Source: Geminicoccaceae bacterium
Lineage (GTDB): Bacteria > Pseudomonadota > Alphaproteobacteria > Geminicoccales > Geminicoccaceae
Direction: 5' to 3'
DNA: 64,000 nucleotides
Assembly (NCBI GenBank): GCA_028285265.1
Contig: JANQPX010000009.1
Location: 1 to 64,000, forward strand
The translations under genes and the position numbers were made by a program. This document shows positions 14,768 to 50,429 of this stretch, piece by piece. Below the pieces are notes generated by a model. That model made no database searches, had not been told where the DNA came from, and was given only the letters and a program-made list of their open reading frames with translations. The first letter of the stretch is position 1; each line of letters opens with the position of its first letter.

Positions 14768-15373
14768 ATGGGTATTGCTGGTCCTAAGAAAACGCGCCAG
14801 AAGGCTGATCCTGTCGACGACGGTGAGTGGGCTGTTGGCGCCGATATTCGCGCACTGCGTAAGAGGCGTTCCATAACGTTAACCGAGCTGGCAAGCCATC
14901 TTGGCCGTTCTGTAGGATTTGTCAGCCAGATCGAACGCGGATTATCCGAGCCCTCGATCAATGACCTGCGCAAAATCGCTGAGGCGTTCGATGTGCCCCT
15001 CAGCTTCCTGTTCGGCAAAAATCGCGGCGATCCGCAGGAAACGCGCTATGTTGTCCGCGCTCATGCACGGCGTCGTCTCGGCAACGCTGAAGGCGGCTTG
15101 ATTGAAGAACTCTTGTCGCCCGATCTTAGTGGTTCCTTCGAAATTCTGAGAAGCGAATTCGCGGCCAATTCGGCGCTTGAGAAACCGATCCTGCGCAACA
15201 CCGAAGAAGCTGGTTTCGTCGTATCCGGCACGCTGGAGATCGCCATCGGCGGCAAGTGGCATGTCCTGGAAGCCGGCGATTCATTCAGATTTGCTGGTGA
15301 GCCCTACTGTTGGCGCAATCCAGGAAACCAGCCCGCCATTGTCATCTGGGTCATCGCCCCACCAACCTACTAA
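14768..15373 (+). CDS. XRE-cupin transcriptional regulator
   Basis: 201 residues. Residues about 25-85 are an HTH (ITLTELASHLGRSVGFVSQI, then ERGLSEPSINDLRKIAEA), and residues about 125-195 are a cupin barrel (GFVSGTLEI-like strands, VLEAGDSFRFAGEPYCWRN). This is the plan of PuuR- and SutR-like regulators, in which the cupin senses a small amine, acid or sulfur ligand. It sits 20 bp before the first FAD/GcvT dehydrogenase and is probably the switch for that operon. Confidence 0.9.
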   Translation: MGIAGPKKTRQKADPVDDGEWAVGADIRALRKRRSITLTELASHLGRSVGFVSQIERGLSEPSINDLRKIAEAFDVPLSFLFGKNRGDPQETRYVVRAHARRRLGNAEGGLIEELLSPDLSGSFEILRSEFAANSALEKPILRNTEEAGFVVSGTLEIAIGGKWHVLEAGDSFRFAGEPYCWRNPGNQPAIVIWVIAPPTY

Positions 15374-15393
15374 GATCAAGAGGAAGAACCGTC

Positions 15394-17835
15394 ATGAAAG
15401 ACCTCCCCTCGACTGCTCGTGTCGTCATCATTGGCGGCGGAGCTGTAGGCGTCTCAGGGCTCTATCACCTCGCGAAAGCTGGTTGGACCGATTGCGTGCT
15501 CTTGGAGAAGAACGAGCTGACGTCAGGCTCAACCTGGCATGCCGCTGGTAACTGCCCGAACTTCAGCAGCTCCTGGGCGGTCATGAACATGCAGCGCTAT
15601 TCGCTGGAGATGTATCGAAATCTCGCCGACGATGTCGACTATCCCATGAACTATCACGTTACAGGCGCTTTGCGGCTTGCCCACACGAAGGAGCGCATGC
15701 AGGAGTTCGAGCGCGTCGCAGGAATGGGCCGCTACCAGGGGCTGCAGATGGACATTTGCACGCCTAACGATTTGCAGCAGCACTTCCCATTCATGGAACT
15801 TCACGATCTGGCCGGGGGGCTCTGGGACCCGCTGGACGGTGACATCGATCCTGCGCAACTGACACAAGCGATGGCCAAAGGTGCCCGTGATCTTGGCCAG
15901 AAGATCCTGCGCTTTACACCGGCGACCGGCATCTCGCGTGAAGGCGACGAGTGGATCATCCAGACGGACAAAGGAAACATCCGTTGCGAATATGTCGTCA
16001 ACGCTGCCGGCTATTATGCGCAGAAGGTGGGCGAATGGTTCAAGCCCTATGGCGGCCGGACGGTACCCATGGTGGTCATGAGCCACCAGTACTTCTTAAC
16101 CGAGGAGATTCCGGAGATCGAGCAGTGGACCAAGGAAAACGGCCGCAAACTGCCGATGGTCCGCGACGTCGATACTTCCTACTATTTGCGTCAGGACAAG
16201 CACGGCCTGAACCTCGGGCCCTATGAACGCCACTGCAGGGCGCACTGGGTGACGCCCGACGATCCCATGCCGGATGACTTTTCTTTCCAGCTTTTTCCAG
16301 ACGATCTAGATCGTCTAGAGTTTTACATCGAGGACGCCATGGCCCGCGTACCGTTGCTTGGCTCGCAAGGTGTCGGTCGGGTCATCAACGGTCCGATTCC
16401 TTACGCGCCGGATGGTTTGCCGTTAATTGGCCCAATGCCAGGCGTGCGCAACGCGTTTGAAGCCCACAGTTTCTCATTCGGTATTGTCCAAGCCGGCGGT
16501 GCCGGCAAAGTCCTTGCAGAGTGGATTGTCGAAGGCACGACGGAGTGGGACATGTGGGCCGTCGATCCGCGGCGCTACACTGACTACACCGATCACGACT
16601 ACTGCTACCAAAAGGCCATGGAGACATATGGCCATGAGTACGCCATGCACTTCCCCCACTTCGAATGGCCGGCCGGTCGTGACAAAAAGCACTCCCCCAT
16701 CCACGATACGCTAGCGAAACTTGGCGCCCAGTTCGGTGCCGTCAACGGCTGGGAACGCGTAAACTGGTTTGCGGCAGGTGGCGATGACATTTCATCGGAG
16801 CGAGCCCAGACGTGGGAACGCGATGGGCCGTGGGAACAGCGCGTGCGCGAAGAATGCGAAGCCGTGCGCGATCATGTTGGTGTTCTTGATCTCTGCGGTT
16901 TCTCGCGCTTTCAGCTGACGGGCGATGGCGCTGCCACCTGGTTACGCTCCCAGATTACGGGCGCGCTGCCAAAAGTCGGGCGTGTAGGCCTTGGCTACTT
17001 TGCCGATGATCAAGGACGCATTGTCACCGAGATGTCGGTAACGCGGCTGGCGGATGATGCGTTTGTCCTCATTACCGCCGCGGCAGCGCAATGGCATGAT
17101 TATGAGCTTCTGGCGAAATCACTTCCCGACGGCCTGTCACTGACCGATTTGACGACAGAATACAGCACGCTCGTTGTCACCGGACCGCGATCACGTGACG
17201 TTTTGTCAGGCCTCACGGACGCTGACCTTTCCTTGCCTTGGTTGACCCATCAGGAGGCACAGCTTGTCGGTCGGCCAGCGCGGCTCGTTCGTGTATCCTT
17301 TGCAGGCGAGCTGGGTTGGGAGATCCATGCAAAGAACGCCGAGATACCCGGCATTTACGAAGCCTTGCTTGAGCGTGGCGTAAAGCCTTATGGCATGTAT
17401 GCAATGAACGCTCTCCGACTTGAAAAAGGATACCGCGCCTGGAAGCAAGATCTGTCGACTGACTACTCAATGTTGGAAGGCGGTCTCGAGCGGTTCATCA
17501 AATGGGACAAGGCTGACTTCGTCGGCAAGGGGGCTCTCTTACGCGAAAAGCAACGCGGACCCGCCAAGCGATTTGCGACTTTCATTATCGAGTCCAACGG
17601 TCATGACGCGCCCTACATGTCAACGGTCTGGCATGGCAATGACGTTGTCGGCGAGATCACATCCAGTGGCTATGGCTATCGTGTCAATGCGTCGATCGCG
17701 TTGGGCGTGGTTCGCGCCGATCTTTCGGAACCCGGAACAGAGCTTGAAATTGAGATTTTTGGTAAACGCTGCAAAGCGATGGTGCAAAAAGACCAACCGC
17801 TTTGGGATCCTGAGAACGTGAGACTAAGAGCATGA
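15394..17835 (+). CDS. FAD-dependent N-methyl amine dehydrogenase with GcvT-like domain, copy 1 (DMGDH-like)
   Basis: 813 residues. Residues 1-430 are a DAO-type FAD domain: the dinucleotide loop VVIIGGGAVGVSGLYHLAKA at about 10-29, then GSTWHAAGN, whose His corresponds to the residue that carries covalent FAD in mammalian dimethylglycine and sarcosine dehydrogenases. Residues about 470-813 are a GcvT/aminomethyltransferase-like domain (GELGWEIHAK; MNALRLEKGYRAW) that in the family captures the one-carbon unit on tetrahydrofolate. The start ATG at 15394 has AAGAGGAAG before it. It overlaps copy 2 by ATGA. The substrate is unknown: dimethylglycine, sarcosine or another N-methylated amine. Confidence 0.85.
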   Translation: MKDLPSTARVVIIGGGAVGVSGLYHLAKAGWTDCVLLEKNELTSGSTWHAAGNCPNFSSSWAVMNMQRYSLEMYRNLADDVDYPMNYHVTGALRLAHTKERMQEFERVAGMGRYQGLQMDICTPNDLQQHFPFMELHDLAGGLWDPLDGDIDPAQLTQAMAKGARDLGQKILRFTPATGISREGDEWIIQTDKGNIRCEYVVNAAGYYAQKVGEWFKPYGGRTVPMVVMSHQYFLTEEIPEIEQWTKENGRKLPMVRDVDTSYYLRQDKHGLNLGPYERHCRAHWVTPDDPMPDDFSFQLFPDDLDRLEFYIEDAMARVPLLGSQGVGRVINGPIPYAPDGLPLIGPMPGVRNAFEAHSFSFGIVQAGGAGKVLAEWIVEGTTEWDMWAVDPRRYTDYTDHDYCYQKAMETYGHEYAMHFPHFEWPAGRDKKHSPIHDTLAKLGAQFGAVNGWERVNWFAAGGDDISSERAQTWERDGPWEQRVREECEAVRDHVGVLDLCGFSRFQLTGDGAATWLRSQITGALPKVGRVGLGYFADDQGRIVTEMSVTRLADDAFVLITAAAAQWHDYELLAKSLPDGLSLTDLTTEYSTLVVTGPRSRDVLSGLTDADLSLPWLTHQEAQLVGRPARLVRVSFAGELGWEIHAKNAEIPGIYEALLERGVKPYGMYAMNALRLEKGYRAWKQDLSTDYSMLEGGLERFIKWDKADFVGKGALLREKQRGPAKRFATFIIESNGHDAPYMSTVWHGNDVVGEITSSGYGYRVNASIALGVVRADLSEPGTELEIEIFGKRCKAMVQKDQPLWDPENVRLRA

Positions 17836-20279
17836 CCCAGCGACCACCTTCACACGCCCGGGCCGTCATCATTGGTGGTGGTATTGCCGGATGTTCGATT
17901 GCCTATCATTTAGCCAAGCAGGGCTGGACAGACGTTGTGCTTCTCGAGGCCAACCAATTGACCAGCGGGACGACTTGGCACGCTGCTGGCCTGATTGCGC
18001 AACTGCGTGCCTCCAAGAATATGACCAAGCTGGCCAAATACAGCCAGGAGCTCTACGGCAATCTGGAAGCCGAAACTGGTGTCGCTACCGGCTTTAGGCG
18101 CTGCGGGTCGATCACGGTAGCGCTGACGGATGAACGGAAGGAAGAAATCTACCGGCAAGCATCGATGGCTCGAGCCTTTGGTGTCGAAGTCGAGGAAATT
18201 ACAGCCGACGAAGCCAAAGATCGGTATCCTTACCTGAATGCCGAGGATGTAACCGGCGCGGTCTACTTGCCGAAGGATGGACAGGGTGATCCCGGCAACA
18301 TTGCCCAGGCACTTGCGAAAGGTGCCCGTCTCAATGGTGCAACGATTGTCGAAGGTGTGCGCGTTACGGATATTCAGCAGGCCAATGGCCGAGTGACCGG
18401 CGTTTCCTGGACGGGCAACAACGATCAGGGATCGATTGCAGCCGATTACGTGGTCAATTGTGGCGGTATGTGGGGACATCATATCGGGCGGCTGGCTAAT
18501 GTCGTTGTACCGTTACACGCATGCGAACATTTCTACATCGTTACCGAAGCCATCCCGGGCTTAAAGCAGTTACCGGTCCTGCGCGTGCCCGACGAATGCG
18601 CCTACTACAAGGAGGATGCGGGTAAGCTTCTGCTCGGCGCCTTCGAGCCGATTGCCAAGCCATGGGGGATGGACGGCATCCCGGATGACTTTTGCTTCGA
18701 CCAACTGCCGGAGGACTTCGAGCATTTCGAGCCGATTTTGGAGAAGGCCGTCAACCGCTTTCCAATCCTGGCAGAAACAGGCATTCACACGTTCTTCAAC
18801 GGGCCGGAGAGCTTTACGCCGGATGATGCCTATCACCTGGGCGAGGCACCCAATCTGCGAAACTTTTTTGTCTGTGCTGGCTTCAACTCCATCGGTATCC
18901 AATCATCCGGTGGTGCCGGCATGGCCCTAGCCTACTGGATGGAGAACGGTCATCCGCCTTTCGATGTATCGGACGTCGACATTCGTCGCATGCAGCCCTT
19001 CCAAGGCAATAAGACATACCTTTTCGAGCGCTCCAAAGAGACCTTGGGTCTCCTCTATGCCGACCACTTTCCCTACCGGCAGATGGCAACGGCGCGCGGT
19101 GTTCGTCGTTCGCCTTTCCATGAGTACCTGAAGGCCGAAGGCGCGGTATTCGGTGAAGTTGCTGGCTGGGAACGGGCGAATTGGTTCGCACGCGAGGATC
19201 AAAAAGGCGAGTACCGCTATTCCTGGAAGCGCCAGAACTGGTTTGACAACAGCCGGGATGAACATCTGGCCGTGAGAACGAATGTGGGCATGTATGACAT
19301 GACCTCGTTCGGAAAGATTCGCGTCGAAGGTCCGGACGCGGAAACGTTTCTCAACTATATCTGCGGCAATGACGTCGCCGTGGCGCCTGGCAAAATCGTC
19401 TACACCCAATTTCTCAATGCCCGCGGCGGTATCGAGGCAGACGTCACCGTGACCCGCCTGTCTGAGACGTCATACGTTGTCGTGACACCGGCTGCGACGG
19501 TGCAGCGTGAGTTGTCCTGGATGAACCGGCACAAAGAGCGCTACAACGTGGTCGTACTCGATGTCACATCCGGGGAAGGTGTGCTTGCGATTATGGGACC
19601 CAACGCGCGCGAACTCCTGAAAAAGGTCTCGCCGCATGATTGGTCCAATGAGAATCATCCCTTCGGTACCGCACATCATATCGAACTGGGTATGGGGCTC
19701 GCACGCGCGCACCGCGTAACGTATGTGGGTGAACTTGGATGGGAAATCTACGTGCCAACAGAGATGGCCGCCCATGCTTTCGAGACGATCCGCGACGCAG
19801 GACATGACATCGGCTTGACCTTGTGCGGCATGCATATGATGGATTCGGCCCGGATTGAAAAAGCCTTCCGACACTTTGGCCATGACATCACGGACGAGGA
19901 TCACGTTCTCGAAGCCGGGCTTGGTTTCGCCGTCAAAACGGGCAAAGCAGATTTCATCGGCCGTAATGCCGTTCTGCAGAAAAAGGACGAGGGCCTCAAC
20001 GCCCGCCTTGTTCAATTCTTGCTGCAGGACACGGAACCCTTGCTGTTCCATCATGAACCCATCGTCCGTGATGGTGAGATCGTATCCTATCTCACGTCTG
20101 GCAATTACGGACATCATCTGGGCGGCGCGATTGGTCTGGGCTATGTTCCTTGCAAAGGCGAGAGTGTCGACCAGTTGCTCTCCTCGTCTTATGAGATCGA
20201 GATTGCCGGAACGCGCGTCAAGGCCGTAGCGTCGGTCCGACCGCTGTACGATCCGAAATCCGAACGTGTCCGGGTCTAG
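17832..20279 (+). CDS. FAD-dependent N-methyl amine dehydrogenase with GcvT-like domain, copy 2 (DMGDH-like)
   Basis: 815 residues with the same two-domain plan as copy 1: FAD loop AVIIGGGIAGCSIAYHLAKQ, covalent-FAD type motif GTTWHAAGL, and a C-terminal GcvT domain (YVGELGWEIYVPTE; MDSARIEKAFRHFGHD). It matches canonical dimethylglycine dehydrogenases more closely than copy 1 does (AAGL rather than AAGN; the DGQGDP motif). Start and stop of the pair overlap, so the two proteins are made together and may work as a heteromer or on successive methyl groups. The heteromer idea is inference. Confidence 0.88.
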   Translation: MTQRPPSHARAVIIGGGIAGCSIAYHLAKQGWTDVVLLEANQLTSGTTWHAAGLIAQLRASKNMTKLAKYSQELYGNLEAETGVATGFRRCGSITVALTDERKEEIYRQASMARAFGVEVEEITADEAKDRYPYLNAEDVTGAVYLPKDGQGDPGNIAQALAKGARLNGATIVEGVRVTDIQQANGRVTGVSWTGNNDQGSIAADYVVNCGGMWGHHIGRLANVVVPLHACEHFYIVTEAIPGLKQLPVLRVPDECAYYKEDAGKLLLGAFEPIAKPWGMDGIPDDFCFDQLPEDFEHFEPILEKAVNRFPILAETGIHTFFNGPESFTPDDAYHLGEAPNLRNFFVCAGFNSIGIQSSGGAGMALAYWMENGHPPFDVSDVDIRRMQPFQGNKTYLFERSKETLGLLYADHFPYRQMATARGVRRSPFHEYLKAEGAVFGEVAGWERANWFAREDQKGEYRYSWKRQNWFDNSRDEHLAVRTNVGMYDMTSFGKIRVEGPDAETFLNYICGNDVAVAPGKIVYTQFLNARGGIEADVTVTRLSETSYVVVTPAATVQRELSWMNRHKERYNVVVLDVTSGEGVLAIMGPNARELLKKVSPHDWSNENHPFGTAHHIELGMGLARAHRVTYVGELGWEIYVPTEMAAHAFETIRDAGHDIGLTLCGMHMMDSARIEKAFRHFGHDITDEDHVLEAGLGFAVKTGKADFIGRNAVLQKKDEGLNARLVQFLLQDTEPLLFHHEPIVRDGEIVSYLTSGNYGHHLGGAIGLGYVPCKGESVDQLLSSSYEIEIAGTRVKAVASVRPLYDPKSERVRV

Positions 20280-24121: not shown

Positions 24122-24994
24122 TCCAAAGCGGGTTTCTGGATCCATCCTAGGCGGGAAAGGACCGACAGAAAACAGCGGTCACAAGGGCTCGACGCTTGGC
24201 CTCGTCTTCACTGAAATGCGCGTTCCAATGTTTGTTGGCCGCCAGTTATTGCAGGTCTTGATCCAGAAAACCGCTGAGCGACCGTCGGAATCCGATCGCG
24301 GGCTTAAAGCAGCTCTATCGCAGTGTTGAAGCGATGAGATGACCTAAGCGGCGATCTCGGGATGGTCAAGTGACGCCCCCCGATGCCGAGGGACGCCAGC
24401 GTTTCCTGTACGATCTGAGCTAGACACAGCTTCGATTTGTCTTGTCTCAATCAGCGCCGAATTTGAACGCTGACGTGGCAGAAGTCCTCCGTTGTCGTTC
24501 GAGGTCGACTCGGAACGATCTTAACGATAGGGCAAGTCAGTGCCGACTGCCTAAACATAAGGCATGATTGAATCCGCATGTCTCTCGATGCTGAATATGG
24601 GATCGACAAAGTCACCGTTATCGCACTCAAGAGGGACAGCATAGAAATCCGTGGCATCCGACGCAGCGCGAAAGAGCCATGATATCCTCAGTTTTTGGGA
24701 CGTGACTCAGCAATTGCCTCAAGACGCAGGTCGTGGCGTGTGGTCAGCTTTTTCTCGAGCATCTCACGATCGGCTGGATGTGAGGCAGTTCACAGTATGC
24801 TTTTCGGGTCCCTCTTATCATTGGAAAACAACGCATTGTCGCTGATTCAGTCGCTTTGATTTGTGAGATGCAGATATGGACGGATTCATACGCCAAACGC
24901 GTCACTCTCAGTGGCTCGGAAAAGGAAACCGTCATACCGAAATTGGTCTGTCAGGTCCGGTCATGAGCGGGTCCAATCGGTCCGCGGTCAGATC
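24122..24994. other. Intergenic stretch without a recognisable gene
   Basis: No open frame here reads like a known protein on either strand. An imperfect inverted repeat (GGTTTCTGGATC at 24131-24142 and its near complement at 24260-24272) flanks the first 140 bp. A 34-codon frame at 24578-24682 is open but has no ribosome site. The rest could be decayed sequence plus the promoter of the cytochrome/patatin pair. Confidence 0.4.
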
Positions 24995-26533
24995 ATGACG
25001 GACGAGAAGATGGCGACCAACAATTCGCCAAATGAAAGCGGCTCGAACAAGTTGCATGACTGGCAAGGCCCGCTGCTCGTTCTGTCCATCGTAATAGTCG
25101 CGGTATGTTCCATCAACTTAAAGTTCTTTCGTGTCGAGCCACAGAAAGTTTGTGATCCCATCAACGACACCGCCGACCATTGTGCCGCTCAGCAGTTTAA
25201 ATATGGCACGCTAGGTGGCGAGGTGGCGGTCGGTATTCCCTTCCGCATCTTCACAGTTTTGCCAAAAGTATTCGGTGTCGATGGCTACGAAGCTTTCGGT
25301 TTTCGCTATGAGCTCGAATGCGACAAAGATGCCTGCTCTGGCGATCACTGCGACGAGAAGAAGCCATGTCGCAAAAGGCGTGACCTTCCCGTTGGCTTTT
25401 CGAAATCCCGTATGGGCTATGAACGCGTCACCGTAAATTGCGCTCTTTGCCACGTCACCAGCTACCGTTTACCTGACGAGCAGGCCTCACGCCTCTTCAT
25501 CGGCGGGCCGGCGCATACGGTCGATATCCAGGCATTTCTTGAGTTTCTCAACCGTGTCGCCCATTCGAACCAACATGACGACGAGATTCTCGAGGCGATT
25601 GAAGGGCTGGGTTGGCTTGATCGCGTCATTTACAAATGGCGTCTCATCCCACGGACCCGGGCCAAGCTCAGAGCCCAGGCGAAGCGCTTTGCCTGGATCC
25701 ATGACGGCGAGCCCTCCAACTGGGGACCAGGCCGTAGCGATCCGATCAACCGAATCAAGGCGGAAGTCATCGGCATCAAGAAGGATGACAGCGCCGGACA
25801 AACGGACTTTCCGGACATCTGGAGCCTAGGTCAGCGTCGCGACCGGGCTATTTTTTGGGGCGGTGAAATGCGCTCCATCGACGGCGCCCTGATCGATCAT
25901 GCGCTGGCCATCGGGGCTCCGCCAGGGCCTGAGACGGTGCAGCGGCTGAAAGATATTCGCGACCTCATGTCAGTTAGGCAGCCTCCACGTTATCCCAAAA
26001 AAATTGCAATCAACCAGAACGCTGTAGCTAAGGGCAGAAAGCTTTTCCGAGACTACTGCGCCAAGTGCCACGGCTGGAACGGGAAGCATTCCGGCGGCAT
26101 CGTGCCGATCAATGTCATCGGCACGGACTCGTCGCGTTTCAACGCCTGGAGCGAACAGCATGCGGACGCAATGAACTCGGCAATCATCGGACTCGGCATT
26201 GAGCGCGAGCCGATGGTCAAGACCAAAGGTTATGTCGCCCCTGCCCTCCACGGCCTCTGGCTGAGGGCGCCCTATCTCCACAACGGTTCCGTGCCGACGC
26301 TTTGGGACCTGCTCACCCCTCCGGAAGATCGGCCAAGGCGCTTTATCAAGGGTATCGACATACTCGACCTAAAGAATGTCGGTTTCTTAGCGCCCGAATG
26401 CGATCCAAAGGATGAGCGCGGATACTGCTTCGATACGGAAGAACGTGGCAACGGCAAGGGCGGTCATGATTACGGCACCTCCCTTCCAGACGAAGAAAAA
26501 CGGCAGCTGATCGAATATCTAAAAACCTTGTGA
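24995..26533 (+). CDS. Membrane-anchored dihaem cytochrome c (RoxA/peroxidase-like)
   Basis: 512 residues. One N-terminal helix (LLVLSIVIVAVCSI) anchors it, with the rest periplasmic. Two haem c sites are present: CALCH at Cys149-His153 and CAKCH at Cys355-His359. The segment APALHGLWLRAPYLHNGSVP near residue 425 is the signature of the dihaem cytochrome c peroxidase/rubber-oxygenase (RoxA/LatA) superfamily. A Cys/Lys-rich stretch CDKDACSGDHCDEKKPC near residue 110 is unusual and may bind a metal or form disulfides. ATG at 24995 precedes the helix closely; its ribosome site is weak. It ends 9 bp before the patatin gene, so they form an operon. The substrate is unknown. Confidence 0.75.
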   Translation: MTDEKMATNNSPNESGSNKLHDWQGPLLVLSIVIVAVCSINLKFFRVEPQKVCDPINDTADHCAAQQFKYGTLGGEVAVGIPFRIFTVLPKVFGVDGYEAFGFRYELECDKDACSGDHCDEKKPCRKRRDLPVGFSKSRMGYERVTVNCALCHVTSYRLPDEQASRLFIGGPAHTVDIQAFLEFLNRVAHSNQHDDEILEAIEGLGWLDRVIYKWRLIPRTRAKLRAQAKRFAWIHDGEPSNWGPGRSDPINRIKAEVIGIKKDDSAGQTDFPDIWSLGQRRDRAIFWGGEMRSIDGALIDHALAIGAPPGPETVQRLKDIRDLMSVRQPPRYPKKIAINQNAVAKGRKLFRDYCAKCHGWNGKHSGGIVPINVIGTDSSRFNAWSEQHADAMNSAIIGLGIEREPMVKTKGYVAPALHGLWLRAPYLHNGSVPTLWDLLTPPEDRPRRFIKGIDILDLKNVGFLAPECDPKDERGYCFDTEERGNGKGGHDYGTSLPDEEKRQLIEYLKTL

Positions 26534-26542
26534 GACGACGCC

Positions 26543-29521
26543 ATGACCACGCAACACGCTGACCAAGGGTCGTCGATAGAAAGCGGCCAGGCGGAAGAAA
26601 CTGTCTGGACGTCCGATCGCAAGCTCATTGAAGCGGAACTGCGCGCCATCGATCGGGCCTCAGAGAATGACAATGCCAGATCTGACCATGTGCGAGCACT
26701 TATCGACCGTTTGTCTCGACCCGAAAGCCATACCGACAATCCCCCCTACTTGATCGGCCTTGCCCTCTCAGGTGGCGGCATTCGTTCGGCAACGTTTTCG
26801 CTCGGCGTCATGCAGCGTCTGGCCAAGGCCGGCATTCTTAAACATGTCGATTATCTATCGACTGTTTCCGGTGGCGGTTATATTGGCTCAGCGCTCTCCT
26901 GGTGGCTTAGTGGCAACGCCGGCGCCAACACCCCGCACTTCGGGACCACCAAAAAAAGCTTTCCCTTCAGCACGCGTGATCCAAAAAATCCCGGACGAAA
27001 TGGCGGCGAACGCATTCTCGAATATCTGCGTGTACACGGGAATTATCTGACACCTGGCAACGGCATCACGGTTTGGTCGGGAGTGGCGATCACCATCCGC
27101 ACACTGCTCCTGAACCTCCTCGTCTGGCTGCCTGTGACAGCGTTCGCATTTTGGGTGCTTCGCCTCATTGGCTCGCTGCCGTTTATGAACGGTCTGCCGC
27201 ATATGGTGTCGTCGATCCTGCCGGGTGCGTTGTCGCAGATCGTGGAGGCCGTCGGCGGCGACGGCAGCATATCGACGATCGGAATCCTACCACCGACATT
27301 CCTATTGGCACTCCTTTTGGCTTTCGCCTCTTTGATCGTCTTTATCTTCGGCGTCATCAACTATTCGCTGCTTTCCTGGGTGACTCATGTCGATCCCCGC
27401 GGACATGATCGTATGGAGAAACCCAGTAAGCCAGGGATTCGCCGCTGGCTGGTAAGCTTGCTGGTCGGGATCGTCGGACTTGCCATTCTCTATATTGTCG
27501 CAAACGAGGTTTGGGCTCTCAGCAGCTCGCTCTTCGCGACTGACCCACCTGAGCCGCAAGACCATGCCGTACTCCAGGAGTATTGGTTTGTTTTCTTCGG
27601 TGTCGCCCTTGCCGTCGCCTGGATCTTTGTCACACTCGATAGCAGTCGGAGCCTCTATAGCTTTAAGGCTTGGCTCAAGCCGATAAAGGATTGGCGAAAG
27701 CTGGTCCAAGCTCTCAAATTCAGAGGTGTCGTTTACATCTTGATGTCTCTGCTCCTGCTCGACTTCGTTTTTGTGAGGTTTGAAGCAAGCGATATCAATG
27801 GCTGGCCTGAGTGGTTCGCGACGCCGACGCGGGTTGCGTATATTGCCGCCTTCGTGGCTTGGATCGGTATCCTTGGATTTGCGAATTTCTGGACTGGCTA
27901 TTATATCCGGCGGCTTTTGCGCGAGGACGGCATTTCCATCACCTATGGTGCTCGCCGGCTGTTCGAAACCTACTTCGGCCTGTCGCTCAAGATCGCCTTC
28001 CTGTTGCTGGTGTTGGGCACCATTCCGTTAATCTACACCTATCTTAAAGAATCAGGCGGCATTGAAGGCATCATCTCGCTGGCGATCGGGGCAGGTTCCG
28101 TCCTCATTTCTCGCCTTCGCAATCTTACTGGCTCTGACGGTGAACGTGTCCCTCTTATCTTCGTGATTGCATCTTATGCCTTCGCCTATGGTGTCCTCCT
28201 GCTCGGCTATCGTTGGTCCGCACTGTTCGTGGAAGGTGACGAAGCAACGCGTGCGATCATCGCGGTTTCCGTCATGCTGGCCTTCATTCTCGGTATCTTC
28301 ACCAACATCAATTACATCGGCTTTCACCGTTACTATCGCGACCGCCTGATGGAGGCGTTTATGCCTGACTGGCAAGCCGTCGAAAAAGGGGTGACGGAGC
28401 CTGCGACCCATGCCGATGGCCTTCGTCTGTCGTCCCTTTGGCCCGTGATGCATGGCATGCGCAAGGATAAGAACCAGCCCCGTATTCCTTTCCATATCAT
28501 CAACGCCAACGCGGTGCTGTCGAACTCAAAGCAGCGGCGTCTTCGTCTTCGTGGGGGCGACAATTTCATTTTGACGCCTTTGGCCTGCGGCAGCGATGCG
28601 ACGGGTTGGGTCGACACCAAACGGTTCATAAGGGACGGCATGACGCTGGCAACAGCGATGGCGATCTCAGGAGCAGCTGCGAATCCGCGTACAGGTGCTG
28701 GTGGCAAGGGCGTCACCCGCAACAACTTCGTCTCAATCGCGATGGGGTTGTTGGGCATTCGCCTAGGTTATTGGGTCCATAATCCCCGTAGCTATCGCCT
28801 GAACGGGAATTGGAAGCGAAGCTTCACGTTCAATCAGTTCTTTCCCGCTGGTGTCTATGCGCTCTTGGGCAGAGGCTATCGGGAAGATAGTGCCTATCTC
28901 GAACTCTCCGACGGAGGTCATTTCGAGAATCTCGCAATCTACGAGCTCGCCCGTCGCCAATGCGGCCTGATCATTCTTTGTGATGGCGGGCAGGACAACG
29001 AGACGTCCTATGCGGATTTCGTATCGGCCATCCAGCGTCTCGGTCAAGACATGAACGCGACCATCCGTTTCGATATGCAGGTGAATGAAAGTCGAGAAGA
29101 GCCGGCCTGGCATTCGTCCGACCCGGCACAGCTTATCGCGCGGCCCGACGACAAAGAATATCCGAAGTCGTCAGACTACGCTGACAAAGGTTACTTTGTC
29201 GCGACCATCGACTATGGAGACAATGGATGCGAAGGCTGGCCAAGGGAGGCGACCGTCGTCTACCTGAAGTCTTCAATGATCCGCGATCTGGATATTGTTG
29301 CGAAGGGATACAAAGGAGCAAATCCAAGCTTCCCCAATCAGACCACCGCGGATCAATTTTTCGATGAGGAGCAATTCGAAGCCTATCGTGAGGTCGGCTA
29401 CCGCGTAGCTGAGCAGATGCTCAACGATCTCGATCTTTCAACACTGTTCAAAAAAGAACGCCCTCCATTAGTCAGTCTTCGAGCGAATGATCGCTTTCGC
29501 AAGATGCCTGAACCTGGATGA
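26543..29521 (+). CDS. Large membrane patatin-like phospholipase
   Basis: 992 residues. The patatin catalytic parts are split: the oxyanion loop LSGGGIRSATFSLGV near residue 75 and the nucleophile Ser109 in TVSGGGYIGS (a bacterial variant of GxSxG) are at the front, while the catalytic Asp790 in LSDGGHFENLAIYEL comes about 680 residues later. Between them lie about 9-11 hydrophobic helices (residues ~175-620), so the lipase core is interrupted by a membrane domain. Patatins cleave acyl esters of membrane lipids. The immediate operon partner is a dihaem cytochrome c, suggesting linked lipid or polymer oxidation and hydrolysis at the membrane; that is inference. Confidence 0.8.
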   Translation: MTTQHADQGSSIESGQAEETVWTSDRKLIEAELRAIDRASENDNARSDHVRALIDRLSRPESHTDNPPYLIGLALSGGGIRSATFSLGVMQRLAKAGILKHVDYLSTVSGGGYIGSALSWWLSGNAGANTPHFGTTKKSFPFSTRDPKNPGRNGGERILEYLRVHGNYLTPGNGITVWSGVAITIRTLLLNLLVWLPVTAFAFWVLRLIGSLPFMNGLPHMVSSILPGALSQIVEAVGGDGSISTIGILPPTFLLALLLAFASLIVFIFGVINYSLLSWVTHVDPRGHDRMEKPSKPGIRRWLVSLLVGIVGLAILYIVANEVWALSSSLFATDPPEPQDHAVLQEYWFVFFGVALAVAWIFVTLDSSRSLYSFKAWLKPIKDWRKLVQALKFRGVVYILMSLLLLDFVFVRFEASDINGWPEWFATPTRVAYIAAFVAWIGILGFANFWTGYYIRRLLREDGISITYGARRLFETYFGLSLKIAFLLLVLGTIPLIYTYLKESGGIEGIISLAIGAGSVLISRLRNLTGSDGERVPLIFVIASYAFAYGVLLLGYRWSALFVEGDEATRAIIAVSVMLAFILGIFTNINYIGFHRYYRDRLMEAFMPDWQAVEKGVTEPATHADGLRLSSLWPVMHGMRKDKNQPRIPFHIINANAVLSNSKQRRLRLRGGDNFILTPLACGSDATGWVDTKRFIRDGMTLATAMAISGAAANPRTGAGGKGVTRNNFVSIAMGLLGIRLGYWVHNPRSYRLNGNWKRSFTFNQFFPAGVYALLGRGYREDSAYLELSDGGHFENLAIYELARRQCGLIILCDGGQDNETSYADFVSAIQRLGQDMNATIRFDMQVNESREEPAWHSSDPAQLIARPDDKEYPKSSDYADKGYFVATIDYGDNGCEGWPREATVVYLKSSMIRDLDIVAKGYKGANPSFPNQTTADQFFDEEQFEAYREVGYRVAEQMLNDLDLSTLFKKERPPLVSLRANDRFRKMPEPG

Positions 29522-41132: not shown

Positions 41133-43301
41133 CTAGGGTAAGGGAGGCTTAGCCACGGCCCTAATGAGATGGACGAGCCTTTCGTCCGAGCGCAAATCTT
41201 CAATAGAGGCGTTAATCCTCCGACGCCAATTGGGGTATTCATCGACTGTACCAGGAAGATTAGCCTGTTCTTGAGCACCGACGGCATCTTCGAGTTGCAC
41301 AGCTTTTAGCAATGCTGGTGTTAGGCCAAGAAAGTTGTGGAAGGCTAAGACGAGCGGCTCCGTCAGGGCCATCGGTGGCTCGTTAGGATCGACGCCCTGG
41401 GGCAAAAGCCCTTCCGCCTCGAGACAACGAAGAAGTTTCATTTTGACGTCTTCCCGATCCTGTCGATCAGAAAGCATCTTTTCGACGTCTGCATAAAACC
41501 CCAACTGTTCGCGCCAAGCGATGTCTCGACCATCCCAGAATCCCCTGAGGGTCGGAAGATCGTGTGTGCCAATCGACGCGATGCTGCTTCGCGGATAGTC
41601 CTTTGGAGGACGGCAGCCGCCATCCTCATCACGCTCGAAGTAAAGGAGGCGGCACCCAAGAAGGCCATGATCGTCGAGTGCGGTGCGCAATGTTTGTGGA
41701 ACCGTACCCAGATCTTCGCCAACGACCAAACACCGATGCCTTAGTGATTCAAGCGCCACCAGCCCCACGAGATCCTGGAGCGGATAACGGATGTACGCGC
41801 CGGATAAAGACGATTCTTCCGGCCACCAGAAGCTGCGCGCGAGACCAAGTACATGATCGATGCGAAGTGCACCTGCCGAGCGCATATTGCAGCGAAGCAG
41901 ATCAATGAAAGGGCGATATCGCTGTTCCCGAAGTGCGGTCGGCGAGAACGGTAGGAGGCCCCAATTCTGTCCGTGGGGATTAAAATCATCGGGAGGTGCG
42001 CCTAGTCTAGCACCAGACACTAAAGCATCCTGAAGAGACCATGCTTCAGCACCATCAGGTGCGACACCAACGGCGAGATCGAGATAAAGACCGAGCGCCA
42101 TGCCGGAATCGACCGCGCTGCGTTGTGCTCCGTCAAGCTGTTCGTTGGCAAGCCATTGAAGATAGGCGTAAAAAGTCACCCGGTCCGCGTGCGTCGTCGC
42201 AAAGGCCTGAACGTCGGCCGAAGTAGGTGTCCGATAGCCAGACGGCCAGACTCGCCAGTCTGTTCCACTGGGAGCGGACATCGACATGGCCTCAGCAATC
42301 GCCTCAAATCGAGCATGACGCTCGAGAGGATCGCCGGCTGCCGCTCGAAATGACTCGAATGCCGATCGTCTCGACGATGATGGCGGTAGACTTAAGAAGG
42401 CTTCAAACAGGGGCTCCAAAACCTCTCGCTTGAACGTCGCCACCGCGCTGTAGTCGATGAGTTCGCTAGACCGAAGCGTCGCCAGCCTTGCGCGACCATC
42501 CGCGCCTTCGAAGAACGTTTTGGCTTTCGCCGAGGTTTCTAATTCTGGCGTGCGATCAAGGGCGATGTGGAGGCCGTTTAGGAACAGTCGGCTGGATGGC
42601 GCATAGGGACTGATGCGTCCGGGCTGTGAAGGAAATAGTGCATGCACCGGATTGACGCCGATGAAATCAGCACCGCTCGACGCAACCACTTTCGCAAAGT
42701 CGGCCAAATCGCCAAAATCCCCGATGCCGGCATTCCGGCTTGAGCGGAGGCCGTAAAGGGGAGCTGTCAGGCCAGCTAGGCTGGCCTCTTGCTCGAGACA
42801 TTTGGGCAAGAAAGCGCGATTGGGCGTGACGATAATCTCGATCTCGGCCGCGTCTTTATCGTCGAGAACGAGTGCAAGTTTGTGATAGCCCGGCAAGGAT
42901 CTAAGCGGCAAGTCTAGAGAGCGTTGTGTCTTAGCTCCTACAGCTCCAGTGACGGCGAGATCGGCAATCACCGCCTCACCTTCGATCGTCTCGCCATGCT
43001 CGGATGTAAAGGTCCAGATAAGCCGATCGGATTGATCCGCATCCACGGTTACGGGGAAGATAATCGGTTTACCTTCAGCGATGACCAGGACGACAGGAGC
43101 AAACCGCTCAAAGGGTCGCTGGCGCGCTTTTCTCAAGCTTGCTTTGATCGCGCTGTCGTCTTCGCATGGTACACCCATCGCGCCCAGAAGGGCTCGTTTC
43201 GTGTCATCACTGATTAAATGGCGATTGCCCCAAATATCGACATAGTCTCGCTCGATGTGATGGGCTTGGGCTAGAAGATCGAGTGATTGATGAGATGTCA
43301 C
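41133..43301 (-). CDS. malQ: 4-alpha-glucanotransferase (amylomaltase)
   Basis: Transfers maltodextrin pieces between chains and releases glucose in the cytoplasm. 722 residues, with the long N-terminal domain of the E. coli type and then the GH77 barrel. The nucleophile Asp is in GALRIDHVLGLARSFWWP, the acid/base Glu in CLVVGEDLGTVPQTLR and the third acid in IGTHDLPTLRGFWDGRD. The start overlaps the glgX stop (43298-43301). It is the last gene of the glycogen operon and reworks the short chains left by GlgP and GlgX. Confidence 0.95.
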   Translation of the reverse strand: MTSHQSLDLLAQAHHIERDYVDIWGNRHLISDDTKRALLGAMGVPCEDDSAIKASLRKARQRPFERFAPVVLVIAEGKPIIFPVTVDADQSDRLIWTFTSEHGETIEGEAVIADLAVTGAVGAKTQRSLDLPLRSLPGYHKLALVLDDKDAAEIEIIVTPNRAFLPKCLEQEASLAGLTAPLYGLRSSRNAGIGDFGDLADFAKVVASSGADFIGVNPVHALFPSQPGRISPYAPSSRLFLNGLHIALDRTPELETSAKAKTFFEGADGRARLATLRSSELIDYSAVATFKREVLEPLFEAFLSLPPSSSRRSAFESFRAAAGDPLERHARFEAIAEAMSMSAPSGTDWRVWPSGYRTPTSADVQAFATTHADRVTFYAYLQWLANEQLDGAQRSAVDSGMALGLYLDLAVGVAPDGAEAWSLQDALVSGARLGAPPDDFNPHGQNWGLLPFSPTALREQRYRPFIDLLRCNMRSAGALRIDHVLGLARSFWWPEESSLSGAYIRYPLQDLVGLVALESLRHRCLVVGEDLGTVPQTLRTALDDHGLLGCRLLYFERDEDGGCRPPKDYPRSSIASIGTHDLPTLRGFWDGRDIAWREQLGFYADVEKMLSDRQDREDVKMKLLRCLEAEGLLPQGVDPNEPPMALTEPLVLAFHNFLGLTPALLKAVQLEDAVGAQEQANLPGTVDEYPNWRRRINASIEDLRSDERLVHLIRAVAKPPLP

Positions 43302-45451
43302 GAAGACTTGTCCAAACGCCAGACAAGAAGGCTTCGTCCGGTAACCAAGATACCATCGCCTTGCGCATGGCCCGCGATTTCATCGGAATCGAGGTTTGGC
43401 ACATTCGTGTCGATTTCCAATCGCCAACTTCCGCGAACACGAAGTCTCGGCAGAATGAATTCGACCGCCTCGTGGTGTGCATTCAACATGATGACGAGGA
43501 CGTCATCTGTAAGTGGTGTGCCGCGCCCATCTCGATCGTTCCCCGCGTTCCCGGCAAGCATCAGACCGATCGAACGAGCCCAACCATTTGTCCAGTGCTC
43601 TGCGGTCTTCTCCCGCCCATCAGGGCTGAGCCAGGTGACATCCTTTAAGCCATCAGGTGACATCGTGCTGCCATGAAGGAAACGTCCACGACGCAACACC
43701 GGATGGTTCTTCCGAAAGGCGATCAGCATCCGAACAAACGCTAAGTCGTCATCGTCGGTCCATGCTAGTTCATCGTCCTGAAGGCGGTCTGGCCAAGTGA
43801 GCCATCCGGTGTCGTTGTCCTGGCAATAAGCGTTATTGTTGCCTTGTTGAGAGTTACCGATCTCGTCCCCGGCTAGCAGCATTGGCGTCCCTTGTGAAAG
43901 GAGAAGCGTGGCTAGCATATTGCGTTTTTGTCGGGCTCGTAGCTTAAGGATCTCCTGATCATCGCTCCGACCTTCGATACCATGATTCCAGCTGTGGTTG
44001 GCGTCATGGCCGTCGCGATTGCCCTCACCATTCGCGTCGTTATGCTTTTGGTCAAAGCTGACCAAGTCCTCGAGCGTGAAGCCATCATGAGAGGTGATGA
44101 AGTTAATACCGGCGAAGGGTAAGCGTCCCCGATGCTCGAAGAGATTGCTTGAGCCTAGGAGAGTGCGGGCGAGATCCGGGAGCATGGCATCATCACCTCG
44201 CCAAAATCGACGGATCGTATCACGGTAATGATCGTTCCATTCTGAAAAGCCAGGCGGGAAATTGCCGAGCTGATAACCACCAGGGCCGACATCCCAGGGT
44301 TCAGCAATAAGCTTCTTTGTGCTTAGGACCGGATCCTGCCTGATGGCATCGAGAAAGCCACCATGAGGATCATAGCCATAGGTTTCGCGACCGAGGACCG
44401 TCGCAAGATCGAAACGGAAGCCGTCGACATGCATCACCTCCACCCAGTAGCGGAGACTGTCCATGACCATCTGCACCACACGCGGATGGGTCATGTTAAG
44501 CGTGTTGCCACAGCCGGTGTCGTTGACGTAGTAGCGGGGATTATCGTCCTGTAGCCGGTAGTAGCTTACATTGTCGATGCCACGAAAGCAGAGCGTTGGG
44601 CCGAGCTCATTGCCTTCAGCCGTATGATTGTAAACGACATCGAGAATGACCTCGATACCGGCATCATGTAGGCGGTGCACCATGGACTGAAAGTCGCGAA
44701 TCCCGCCGGGACCAAGATAGCGAGGCTCCGGTGCGAAGAAGCCGATACTGTTGTAGCCCCAGTAATTGGACAGTCCCTTTTCGAGCAAATGCGGCTCGTC
44801 AAGAAACGCATGCACCGGTAAAAGCTCAAGGGCTGTAATGCCCAGCCCAACCAGATGATCCAGCATTGGCGGTGCCGTGAGGCTATTGAACAAGCCGCGG
44901 GCGGCTACAGGAATGTCCGGCTGCTTCATGGTGGCGCCACGCACATGCGCCTCATAGAGGACAGTTTCCGACCAAGGCGTCGACGGCGATCGATCATCAC
45001 CCCAAGCATAGGCAGGATCGACGACCACAGATTTGGGCATGGCAAACGCACTGTCGCGCCGGTCCTGAGAGAGGTCGAGACGGCCGCTACCGACCCGATA
45101 GCCGTAGAGGGAGTCGGACCAACGGATACTTTTGGTGATCTGCTTGGCATAGGGGTCGAGCAGCAGCTTGGCCGGATTAAAGCGATGCCCTGCCTCGGGA
45201 CGATATGCGCCATGAACGCGATAGCCGTAGAGCTGGCCCGGCATGATGTCTGGCAGATAGCCATGCCAGACCTCATCGGTGTGTTCGGGTAGATCGACGC
45301 GTATGATCTCGCGTCCTTGAGAGGAAAACAGGCAGAGCTCGACACGCTGTGCATGCGCGGAAAACAGCGCAAAGTTGACGCCGCCGCCATCGAACGTTGC
45401 GCCCATTGGATAGGGTTTACCCGGATGAACGGTAAAATCTTGCATCGCCAT
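43298..45451 (-). CDS. glgX: Glycogen debranching enzyme, isoamylase type
   Basis: Hydrolyses alpha-1,6 branches of phosphorylase-limit glycogen. About 717 residues: an N-terminal CBM48 domain (PYPMGATFDGGGVNFALFSA) then a GH13 barrel with VDGFRFDLATVLGRE (nucleophile Asp), KKLIAEPWDVGPGGYQLG (acid/base Glu) and NFITSHDGFTLEDLVSF (third Asp). The start is uncertain between ATGs ending at 45451 and 45445; the longer frame to 45532 runs into glgA and is rejected. Coupled to malQ by ATGA. Confidence 0.94.
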   Translation of the reverse strand: MAMQDFTVHPGKPYPMGATFDGGGVNFALFSAHAQRVELCLFSSQGREIIRVDLPEHTDEVWHGYLPDIMPGQLYGYRVHGAYRPEAGHRFNPAKLLLDPYAKQITKSIRWSDSLYGYRVGSGRLDLSQDRRDSAFAMPKSVVVDPAYAWGDDRSPSTPWSETVLYEAHVRGATMKQPDIPVAARGLFNSLTAPPMLDHLVGLGITALELLPVHAFLDEPHLLEKGLSNYWGYNSIGFFAPEPRYLGPGGIRDFQSMVHRLHDAGIEVILDVVYNHTAEGNELGPTLCFRGIDNVSYYRLQDDNPRYYVNDTGCGNTLNMTHPRVVQMVMDSLRYWVEVMHVDGFRFDLATVLGRETYGYDPHGGFLDAIRQDPVLSTKKLIAEPWDVGPGGYQLGNFPPGFSEWNDHYRDTIRRFWRGDDAMLPDLARTLLGSSNLFEHRGRLPFAGINFITSHDGFTLEDLVSFDQKHNDANGEGNRDGHDANHSWNHGIEGRSDDQEILKLRARQKRNMLATLLLSQGTPMLLAGDEIGNSQQGNNNAYCQDNDTGWLTWPDRLQDDELAWTDDDDLAFVRMLIAFRKNHPVLRRGRFLHGSTMSPDGLKDVTWLSPDGREKTAEHWTNGWARSIGLMLAGNAGNDRDGRGTPLTDDVLVIMLNAHHEAVEFILPRLRVRGSWRLEIDTNVPNLDSDEIAGHAQGDGILVTGRSLLVWRLDKSS

Positions 45452-45459
45452 AATGGAGA

Positions 45460-46914
45460 TCAGGACACCAAAGTTGTCGCCGAGCAAAGCTCGCGATAAA
45501 GGGCAGTGTAGGTTTTTGCGGCGGCGGACCAACCCACATTCCGGCTCATGGCGCGGCGCTGGACCTGCTGCCAGGCCTCCTTGTTACGATAGAGGATAAA
45601 GGCACGTTCGATCGCTGTACGGAGCTCAGTGACACTATCGGAACCAAATTGAAATCCTGTGGCGACGCCGTCGACGAGAGCAGCCTGATTGGCGTCGATC
45701 ACTGTGTCAGCAAGCCCGCCGACACGCGCGACGATCGGGAGCGTGCCATAACGAAGCCCGTAAAGCTGGGTGAGGCCGCAAGGCTCAAAGCGGGACGGGA
45801 TGAGAATGGCATCTGCCCCCGCTTGAAGCTGATGCGAAAGTGGTTCGTCATAACCAAAAACCGCGCCAATCTGGCCAGGGTTCCTGCGCACCGTATCGGC
45901 AAAAGCCGCTTCTAGCTTGGCATCACCGCTACCAAGCAGGGCGAGTTGGCCGCCCTGCTCGAGAAGCGTCGGGAGTGCTTCGAGGAGAAGGTCAAATCCC
46001 TTTTGCGCTGTCAGCCGACTAATGACGCAGAACAACAGGGTATCGGGGTCATTTTCGAGCCCCAGTCGGGCCTGCAAAGCTGCTTTGTTGGCCAACTTGG
46101 CGTCGAGGCAGTCGCCGGTGTAAGGATGCAGCACATTGGGATCGTCGCCCGGATTCCAGACAACGCAATCGATGCCGTTGGTAATGCCCGTCAGCACATC
46201 CTTCCTTTGGCGCAGCACACCATCCAACCCCACGCCGACATCGGGTGTGCAGATTTCGCGCGCATAGGTCGGGCTAACCGTCGTGACACGATCAGCGTAC
46301 TGAATGCCGCCTTTCAAAAAGCTAATCTTACCCCAATATTCCAGGCCATCCATCGTAAAGCTGGATGGCGGCAATCGAAGAGCCGTGAGTTCGGTCGCTG
46401 GGACGATCCCCTGAAAGGCCAGGTTGTGGATGGTCATTACTGTCGCCGGTCTCGACTCGATGCCAGCTAAGTAAACCGGCGCAAGAGCCGCCTGCCAATC
46501 ATGACCATGGATCACATCGGGCCGATAGCCCTCGATCAAGCCTTTGCCGATTTCCGCTGCCGTCCAGGCAAGGGCTGCAAAGCGGAAATGATTATCCGGC
46601 CAATCCATACCATCCGGCCCCAGGTAGGGATTGCCTGCACGGGCAAACAGGTGCGGTGCATCGAGCACGAGCAGTTCGGTGCCATCTTGCGCTCGAGCAT
46701 CGAGCAGTGTTGCATCGCCGCCGAACAGATCACCCAGTGACGATATGGCTCCTGCGCTTGAGATCCCCGCTATCACATCGGAATAGCCCGGCAGTAGTGT
46801 GCGCATGACCACATTCTCATCGGCGAGTGCACGCGGTAATGCACCAGCGACATCGGCAAGGCCGCCAGTCTTAATCAAAGGAAAGAATTCGGATGTGACC
46901 GAAAGAACTTGCAT
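45460..46914 (-). CDS. glgA: Glycogen synthase (ADP-glucose dependent)
   Basis: Adds glucose from ADP-glucose to glycogen ends. 484 residues, GT5. The ADP-glucose motif KTGGLADV is at residues 15-22, and the C-terminal part has SRFEPCGLTQLYGLRYGTLP, with the catalytic Glu, and RVGGLADTV. The ATG ending at 46914 begins MQVLSVTSEFFPLIKTGG as expected; an upstream frame extension into glgC is not needed. It lies 14 bp after glgC, so the activated sugar and the synthase are made from one message. Confidence 0.96.
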   Translation of the reverse strand: MQVLSVTSEFFPLIKTGGLADVAGALPRALADENVVMRTLLPGYSDVIAGISSAGAISSLGDLFGGDATLLDARAQDGTELLVLDAPHLFARAGNPYLGPDGMDWPDNHFRFAALAWTAAEIGKGLIEGYRPDVIHGHDWQAALAPVYLAGIESRPATVMTIHNLAFQGIVPATELTALRLPPSSFTMDGLEYWGKISFLKGGIQYADRVTTVSPTYAREICTPDVGVGLDGVLRQRKDVLTGITNGIDCVVWNPGDDPNVLHPYTGDCLDAKLANKAALQARLGLENDPDTLLFCVISRLTAQKGFDLLLEALPTLLEQGGQLALLGSGDAKLEAAFADTVRRNPGQIGAVFGYDEPLSHQLQAGADAILIPSRFEPCGLTQLYGLRYGTLPIVARVGGLADTVIDANQAALVDGVATGFQFGSDSVTELRTAIERAFILYRNKEAWQQVQRRAMSRNVGWSAAAKTYTALYRELCSATTLVS

Positions 46915-46928
46915 CCTTAAATCCGTCG

Positions 46929-48203
46929 TTAGATCGATAGGCGCTCGATCATCGGCTTGGTGATCAAACAAATACCATTGTCCGTACGCCGAAAACGCTT
47001 GGCATCCTCCTCCGGATCCTCGCCAACCACCAAACCCTCGGGGATCTCAACGCCTCGGTCGATCACCACGTTCTTAAGCCGAGCATGCCGTCGGATCTGG
47101 ACATAAGGCAAAGCGACGACACCTTCCAGCTCGCTGTAGGAATGCGCATGCACGCCGGTGAACAGCAAGGCCCGATCGATCTTCGAACCGGAAACGATGC
47201 AGCCGCCAGAGACCATCGAGCTGGTCGCCATGCCGCGGCGATTGACTTCATCATGAATGAATTTCGCTGGGGGTGTGATTTCCGCATAGGTCCAAATCGG
47301 CCACTCTTGATCATAAAGATCGAGGGCCGGCGTGAAGTCGGTGAGATCGATATTAGCCTGCCAGTAGGCATCGATGGTGCCGACATCCCGCCAATAGGGC
47401 TCGTCTGACCCTTCAGCGCCGCTTTTGACGCAAGACGTTGGAAAACGGTGGGCAACGGCTTTGCCGTTCTTCACGAGATAAGGGATGATGTTCTTGCCGA
47501 AATCGCGTGCGCTGTCCGGATCATTCGCGTCCCGTCGTAGCTCTCCAAACATGAAATCCGTCTTGAAGACATAGATACCCATGCTGGCAAGGGCCATCTT
47601 CGGCTTATCCGGCATGCCAGGCGGGTCAGCCGGCTTTTCGAGAAACTCGATGATTCGATCCTCTTTGTCGACATGCATCACACCAAAGCCAGTAGCCTCC
47701 GCCCGTGGCACCTCAAGACACCCAACGGTGACATCGGCGCCGGAGTTGACGTGCTGTGCCAGCATCAACTCATAGTCCATCTTGTAGACATGATCGCCTG
47801 CCAGAATCACCATGTATTCAGGCGCATAGCTCTCAATGATATCGATGTTTTGGTAAACCGCGTCGGCCGTACCTTCATACCACTGGGTCTCGGAAACGCG
47901 TTGTGACGCGGGCAAGATGTCGAAGCCTTCGTTCCGCTCTGGTCTCAGGAAGTTCCAGCCACGTTGGAGATGGCGGATCAAAGAGTGCGCTTTGTATTGT
48001 GTCGCGACGCCAATGCGCCGAATGCCGGAATTCAAAGCGTTGGATAAAGCGAAGTCGATAATTCTGCTTTTGCCACCGAAGAATACCGATGGCTTCGCTC
48101 GTTTATCCGTCAATTCAAGCAGCCTGGATCCACGTCCGCCTGCGAGAACATACGCCATGCTGTAGCGCGCGAGCTGTGTGCTCCGCTGGACTGCTGTCGC
48201 CAT
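46929..48203 (-). CDS. glgC: Glucose-1-phosphate adenylyltransferase
   Basis: Makes ADP-glucose from ATP and glucose-1-phosphate, the controlled step of glycogen synthesis. 424 residues. [20 protein letters not shown] is the nucleotide-binding P-loop and activator region; [16 protein letters not shown] holds the metal Asp; the C-terminal part is a left-handed beta-helix. GGGGAGACGAAC precedes the ATG ending at 48203, which beats the longer frame to 48251. It follows glgB by 26 bp. Confidence 0.96.
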
Positions 48204-48229
48204 GTTCGTCTCCCCGGGATATTGTTTGT

Positions 48230-50419: not shown

Positions 50420-50429
50420 GCTCGTCCTC

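Follow-up and report, generated by a model that had tools for sequence, protein, structure and literature searches.

Two adjacent, co-directional genes in the window (the whole stretch of 64,000 nucleotides that was analysed) encode a di-haem cytochrome c and a patatin split by a membrane domain. We tentatively favour the reading that they form an oxylipin-type lipid-oxidation cassette of a phospholipase and a haem oxygenase, for which we infer activity and substrate from sequence comparison. The cytochrome ORF (512 aa) runs on the forward strand from an ATG at 24995 to a stop at 26533, with an alternative GTG start for the same frame at 24863, and the patatin ORF (992 aa, 26543 to 29521, forward strand, ATG at 26543) follows after 9 bp; ORFs and spacing are as described in an earlier, sequence-only reading of this DNA. 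Upstream lie an intergenic stretch (24122 to 24994 on the forward strand, GC 0.53) and a class III aminotransferase gene, and the gene downstream, on the opposite strand, encodes a D-2-hydroxyacid dehydrogenase; the transcription unit appears to consist of cytochrome and patatin with no further member. Elsewhere, the window carries two adjacent DAO + GCV_T dehydrogenases of the dimethylglycine/sarcosine dehydrogenase type (15310–20279) and, on the minus strand, an ordinary glycogen cluster (41133–52889) with phosphorylase, GlgB, a GlgC-type protein, GlgA, a debranching-type enzyme and MalQ.

Judged by profile scores, the cytochrome is a member of NCBIfam family NF040606 and of the RoxA-like superfamily, outside RoxA, RoxB and RoxC. 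It scores 184.2 bits against NF040606 (curated cut-off 150), a family named di-haem cytochrome C peroxidase, and matches the Pfam families RoxA-like_Cyt-c (8e-18; the C-terminal segment, PF21419) and Cytochrom_C (2e-7), in agreement with the RoxA/peroxidase-type segment reported earlier. Assignment as a rubber oxygenase was rejected, the scores for RoxA, RoxB and RoxC (64.1, 70.8 and 80.2 bits) falling short of the respective cut-offs (1000, 900 and 900) by more than ten-fold. The protein has a single N-terminal membrane helix (approximately residues 24–45) and two CXXCH motifs (CALCH, 149–153; CAKCH, 355–359), together with the MauG/RoxA-type signature PYLH429NGSVP and the sequence GGH491DYG, in which His491 aligns with the RoxA haem-2 ligand His641; it thus has three sequence features of the FadCcp type: two CXXCH motifs, a PYxHNGSVP motif and a distal His for haem 2. 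RoxA residues F301-W302 correspond to F287-W288 and F317 corresponds to Leu304, in a region where the alignment is weak. Substitutions of F317 in RoxA, Leu included, drastically reduced or abolished activity (PMC6797691). An AlphaFold2 model of the cytochrome, built with nine sequences, reached a pLDDT of only 44, too low for the model to be used. The Cys-rich stretch described as odd is a real insertion (CDKDACSGDHCDEKKPC, 25319 to 25372 on the forward strand, residues 109–126) with 4 Cys in 17–18 residues before the first haem motif; among 46 aligned cytochromes it is present only in the window protein and in 0 of its 45 relatives, and it may bind a metal or form disulfides close to the first haem.

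The patatin matches the Pfam family PF01734 at 7.9e-9 (36.4 bits, gathering threshold 27.7), only over residues 73–126, the part bearing the nucleophile. This nucleophile half contains GGGIRS and TVSGG, with Ser109, and the C-terminal half contains DGGH, with Asp790, and a conserved FPxxTTxDQFFDEEQFEAYR motif, so that a score above gathering, the oxyanion glycines, the nucleophile Ser and a catalytic DG[GA] were all found. Between Ser109 and Asp790 lie ten hydrophobic segments (approximately residues 188–589), as the sequence-only reading had noted, and the same split, by 4–10 hydrophobic helices, was found in 40/40 aligned relatives from at least eight phyla, with G77-G79, R81, S109 and D790-G-G-H793 among the invariant positions. 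Conservation argues that the Ser109-Asp790 dyad is real. Lys and Arg residues number 5–7 in each loop that follows helix 2, 4 or 6 and 0–2 in each that follows helix 1, 3 or 5, a pattern from which the positive-inside rule predicts a cytoplasmic location for the two parts of the active site. An AlphaFold2 model (pLDDT 77, pTM 0.80) compared with the PDB by Foldseek gave human cPLA2 (1cjy) as the top match (E 2.4e-4, probability 1.0, with a TM-score of 0.2–0.3 and an rmsd of 18.6), followed by other cPLA2s, VipD and PlpD, and a profile search against PDB sequences gave only weak matches to cPLA2 and VipD as well as spurious ones to membrane proteins in the helix region; the predicted resemblance to cPLA2 is thus suggestive only. 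Such an arrangement, with a membrane domain between the two dyad residues, does not seem to have been described for a patatin family. In distant lineages, members of this family lie beside TIR, SLOG cluster2 and nSTAND1 genes (loci L025, L030, L033, L035 and L039), which suggests that the split patatin has a further role there, attacking membranes as the effector in conflict systems.

Among 48 loci collected by the patatin alone, four (L010, L011, L013 and L045) have an orthologous cytochrome gene directly upstream of the patatin gene with gaps of 9–16 bp, a recurrence that is more than chance. All four genomes are of Aestuariivirgaceae type and belong to Taklimakanibacter, Aestuariivirga and two Hyphomicrobiales. 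The pair was not upheld as a self-contained two-gene unit: in these four genomes it forms the last two genes of a six-gene operon in the order di-haem protein of 820 aa, 316-aa protein, 328-aa protein with one CXXCH, di-haem protein of 547 aa, di-haem protein of 510 aa and patatin, and the window has the last two alone. The window cytochrome falls within the clade of fifth genes (support 100/100), where it clusters with the patatin-linked copies (support 93/88), and is therefore orthologous to the operon's fifth gene. The run without patatin was found in four further genomes (G369, G293, G197 and G126); in G126 no 328-aa gene was detected and the contig stops right after the last cytochrome. 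The 820-aa secreted di-haem protein and the two Pfam-less proteins that accompany it (316 aa; 328–560 aa with one CXXCH) are encoded at L013 594–4886, with equivalents in L010, L045, L083, L084 and L086, and this alphaproteobacterial cytochrome operon is apparently undescribed. The partner is missing beside most relatives of either gene, 44/48 patatin loci having no cytochrome. In a class-wide sample of 385 genomes, the cytochrome was found in at least 11 and the patatin in at least 9, and both were found, among the candidates scored, only in the window's own genome; as up to three candidates were scored per genome in these large scans, the presence counts are lower bounds. The co-occurrence across genomes on which the sequence-only reading had made its proposal depend therefore holds for the adjacent pair in four other genomes and fails for most relatives of each gene.

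No remnants of operon genes g1 to g4 were found between 24122 and 24994 or in the rest of the own genome (G000), in which there were 0 matches to g1, no ortholog of g4 and no second close cytochrome. Given the lack of a g1 match and of a second close cytochrome, we read the window pair as a shortened version of the six-gene operon. The assembly itself is 8.5 Mb with 6.95% contamination, compared with 2–5.9 Mb for relatives in the family, so that it is possibly a mixed assembly and the assignment of the window's contig (C55) to this host is unsure.

The strongest evidence for a lipid role, as judged from gene neighbourhoods, is that relatives of the cytochrome are found beside other lipases where the split patatin is replaced. 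A Tle1-like phospholipase gene (1e-76) lies 12 bp from a cytochrome relative in G369, a patatin of CapV size lies 0.5 kb away in G178 and a patatin lipoprotein lies 2.3 kb away in G383. Of 15 genomes chosen by the cytochrome alone, with no lipase criterion, 3 have a patatin or Tle1 gene no more than 5 kb from the cytochrome, compared with 0.15 expected (P about 5e-4); this enrichment consists of three loci and, given the breadth of the lipase types, part of it could reflect generic lipid metabolism. Alpha/beta hydrolase genes are located directly downstream in G012 and Qingshengfaniella, and one fused to a GMC oxidoreductase is located upstream in G523 (loci L094 and L115; fusion L122). Rhizobium plasmids, pRL11 among others, carry a run of genes for an FMN oxidoreductase, a di-haem protein, a 143-aa protein, two di-haem proteins, a GMC oxidoreductase and a patatin; this membrane patatin differs from that of the window, being alignable at the nucleophile motif only.

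Haem peroxidases of the COX type (PF03098) are encoded in or beside cytochrome loci in G178, G241, G484, G712 and Qingshengfaniella. In the class sample, PF03098 was enriched among cytochrome-bearing genomes with an odds ratio of 23- to 29-fold, and the co-occurrence at genome level had a Fisher p of 2e-5 with the own genome and 2e-4 without it; these figures are approximate because the two samples are slightly unequal in size. On the conjugative plasmid pRetR611c of R. phaseoli, a 942-aa catalase-peroxidase fusion (L116 4066–6891), with a catalase-like N-terminal and an animal haem peroxidase C-terminal domain, is encoded directly upstream of a RoxA-like di-haem cytochrome. A catalase-like gene also lies next to a sister cytochrome in G241, and on the window's own contig (C55:86993–90231, L060 6993–10231), about 60 kb from the window pair, a gene for a catalase-like protein is followed by one for a second NF040606 di-haem protein (514 bits) with a lipoprotein-like N-terminus. 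No PF03098 gene adjoins the window pair, the nearest in the own genome being on contigs C34 and C70. At C34 (G000:C34:206606–210210, L129 7608–11211), a PF03098 peroxidase gene (8.7e-112) adjoins that of a protein composed of cNMP-binding, NTE P-loop and patatin (4e-32) domains, so that the genome contains another haem-oxidase/patatin pair, one not homologous to that of the window.

In the proposed lipid-oxidation cassette, the patatin would reside in the inner membrane and, with its active site at the cytoplasmic face, cut acyl chains off phospholipids as a phospholipase A. The freed unsaturated fatty acid would pass across the inner membrane to the periplasm, where the anchored di-haem enzyme would oxygenate it at the N-terminal haem using O2, like RoxA and the 10S-dioxygenase of Pseudomonas, with the C-terminal haem passing electrons during the reaction. 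The two extra di-haem proteins of the relatives and the flavoenzymes of other lineages probably extend this chemistry. Three published statements bear on the scheme: in RoxA, the N-terminal haem is the site of O2 binding (PMC6797691), PA2077 and PA2078, periplasmic RoxA-like di-haem proteins of P. aeruginosa, convert oleate to a 10S-hydroperoxide and a 7,10-diol (PMC4496055, PMC5155153), and a review proposes that unsaturated envelope fatty acids may be oxidised by the related RoxC lipoproteins (PMC10837239). The window pair conserves the invariant Ser-Asp dyad, two haem sites, the PYLHNGSV signature and the distal haem-2 His. Since the patatin dyad is predicted to be cytoplasmic and the c-type haem domain is necessarily periplasmic, the two proteins would form a pathway with no joined active site. 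The earlier suggestion of lipid oxidation and hydrolysis thus stands as the best fit to the comparative evidence (recurrence of the pair, other lipases, COX-type and catalase-like neighbours), without the single joined enzyme site that went with it. Speaking against the cassette are the need for the free fatty acid to cross the bilayer between sites on opposite faces, the many relatives of each gene that lack the partner, Leu304 at the F317 position (weak alignment), the low TM-score of the cPLA2 match and the three loci on which the lipase enrichment is based. A bolder version seems to us rather unlikely: a cPLA2-like patatin and a periplasmic di-haem dioxygenase would be the bacterial equivalent of the eicosanoid-type route from cPLA2 to a dioxygenase and would make oxylipins that act as signals or are otherwise bioactive, as one instance among several in which unrelated lipases were combined with haem fatty-acid oxygenases.

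The main rival, with which the oxylipin-type cassette has most of its evidence in common, is lipid-peroxide repair, in which the patatin would clip oxidised acyl chains and the di-haem protein, as a peroxidase, would use respiratory-chain electrons to reduce lipid hydroperoxides. A phospholipase would be a natural partner for taking out oxidised chains, and the name of NF040606 and the catalase-like genes adjoining sister cytochromes in G241 and on C55 point in the same direction. However, the cytochrome belongs to the RoxA-like group, and in RoxA the acid-base residues typical of true peroxidases are missing (PMC6797691); moreover, the tandem or triple di-haem copies and the GMC and FMN oxidoreductases look more like parts of a pathway for biosynthesis or degradation than of plain detoxification, and no oxidative-stress regulator was found among the neighbours of the window pair. 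We regard repair as a serious but improbable alternative. Lower still we place a catabolic pathway for a hydrophobic isoprenoid (a carotenoid, hopanoid, sterol ester or polyisoprenoid), in which the di-haem proteins would cleave or oxidise the molecule and the patatin or another lipase would split an ester; the sequence-only reading had named a hydrophobic polymer as an alternative to lipids. RoxA cleaves polyisoprene, and the operons of Rhizobium, G383, G013 and G523 also encode FMN reductases and GMC oxidoreductases, to whose family sterol and choline oxidases belong, but the RoxA/B/C equivalog cut-offs are missed more than ten-fold, the patatin site is predicted to be cytoplasmic and neither a GMC nor an FMN enzyme is encoded with the window pair. 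It is very unlikely that the pair is a decayed remnant or an assembly join with no function of its own: the absence of g1 to g4 and the size and contamination of the assembly would fit such an origin, but both frames are intact, all motifs are conserved, the operon spacing is kept and the GC content is that of the window. Least credible is an anti-phage conflict system with the patatin as membrane-damaging effector and the cytochrome as bystander or redox sensor, a defence role which the TIR, SLOG cluster2 and nSTAND1 neighbours of the family elsewhere would favour, since neither protein matches a PADLOC family, the window neighbours are metabolic with no sensor or nucleotide-signal gene adjoining, and the orthologous pair sits inside a cytochrome operon in four genomes.

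Bacterial oxylipins have so far been tied to one well-studied di-haem pair, that of P. aeruginosa, with the source of the fatty acid lying outside the described operon. If the lipid-oxidation cassette is real, di-haem lipid oxygenation would extend to Alphaproteobacteria that live in soil or with plants, conjugative Rhizobium plasmids included, and would be linked to a dedicated phospholipase, a bacterial parallel, in outline, to the animal phospholipase-oxygenase (prostaglandin) route.

Searches of the open-access PMC literature gave no report of a patatin associated with a RoxA-like di-haem protein, in line with the earlier statement that no described system with this pair was known. The closest known system is FadCcp, the oleate-diol synthase formed by PA2077 (10S-DOX) and PA2078 (7,10-DS), for which no paired lipase is mentioned in PMC4496055 and PMC5155153. 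The window cytochrome resembles these proteins in being a RoxA-like di-haem protein in the range of about 500–630 aa with two CXXCH motifs, PY[FL]HNGSVP, a C-terminal distal His and a Trp at the W302 position, and its relatives in L010, L011, L013 and L045 have FadCcp-like tandem di-haem genes; unlike FadCcp, it is single and membrane-anchored, carries a Cys-rich insert, has Leu304 where RoxA has F317 and is encoded beside a phospholipase-like partner. With RoxA, RoxB and RoxC it shares the C-terminal RoxA-like segment (PF21419; residues 498–662 of 4b2n align) and the haem-2 ligand corresponding to His641, but it is about 150 aa shorter, membrane-anchored instead of secreted and not accompanied by rubber-related genes. 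The patatin has the oxyanion glycines, the Ser in VSGG and the DGG Asp of the cPLA2/PlpD/CapV superfamily, and in cPLA2 the Ser and Asp are likewise far apart in sequence; however, it differs from all of these in the 4–10 helix membrane domain inserted between the two residues, and the structural match is local with a low TM-score. Pairs of a cyclooxygenase or linoleate dioxygenase with a catalase-related enzyme occur in bacteria and cyanobacteria. These are comparable in joining a haem oxygenase to a partner that acts on lipid hydroperoxides or releases lipids, and PF03098 and catalase-like genes lie near sister cytochromes, but the haem peroxidase fold is unrelated to that of the di-haem cytochromes. 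What we rate as new here is the association of di-haem lipid oxygenation, itself of a known kind, with a dedicated lipase.
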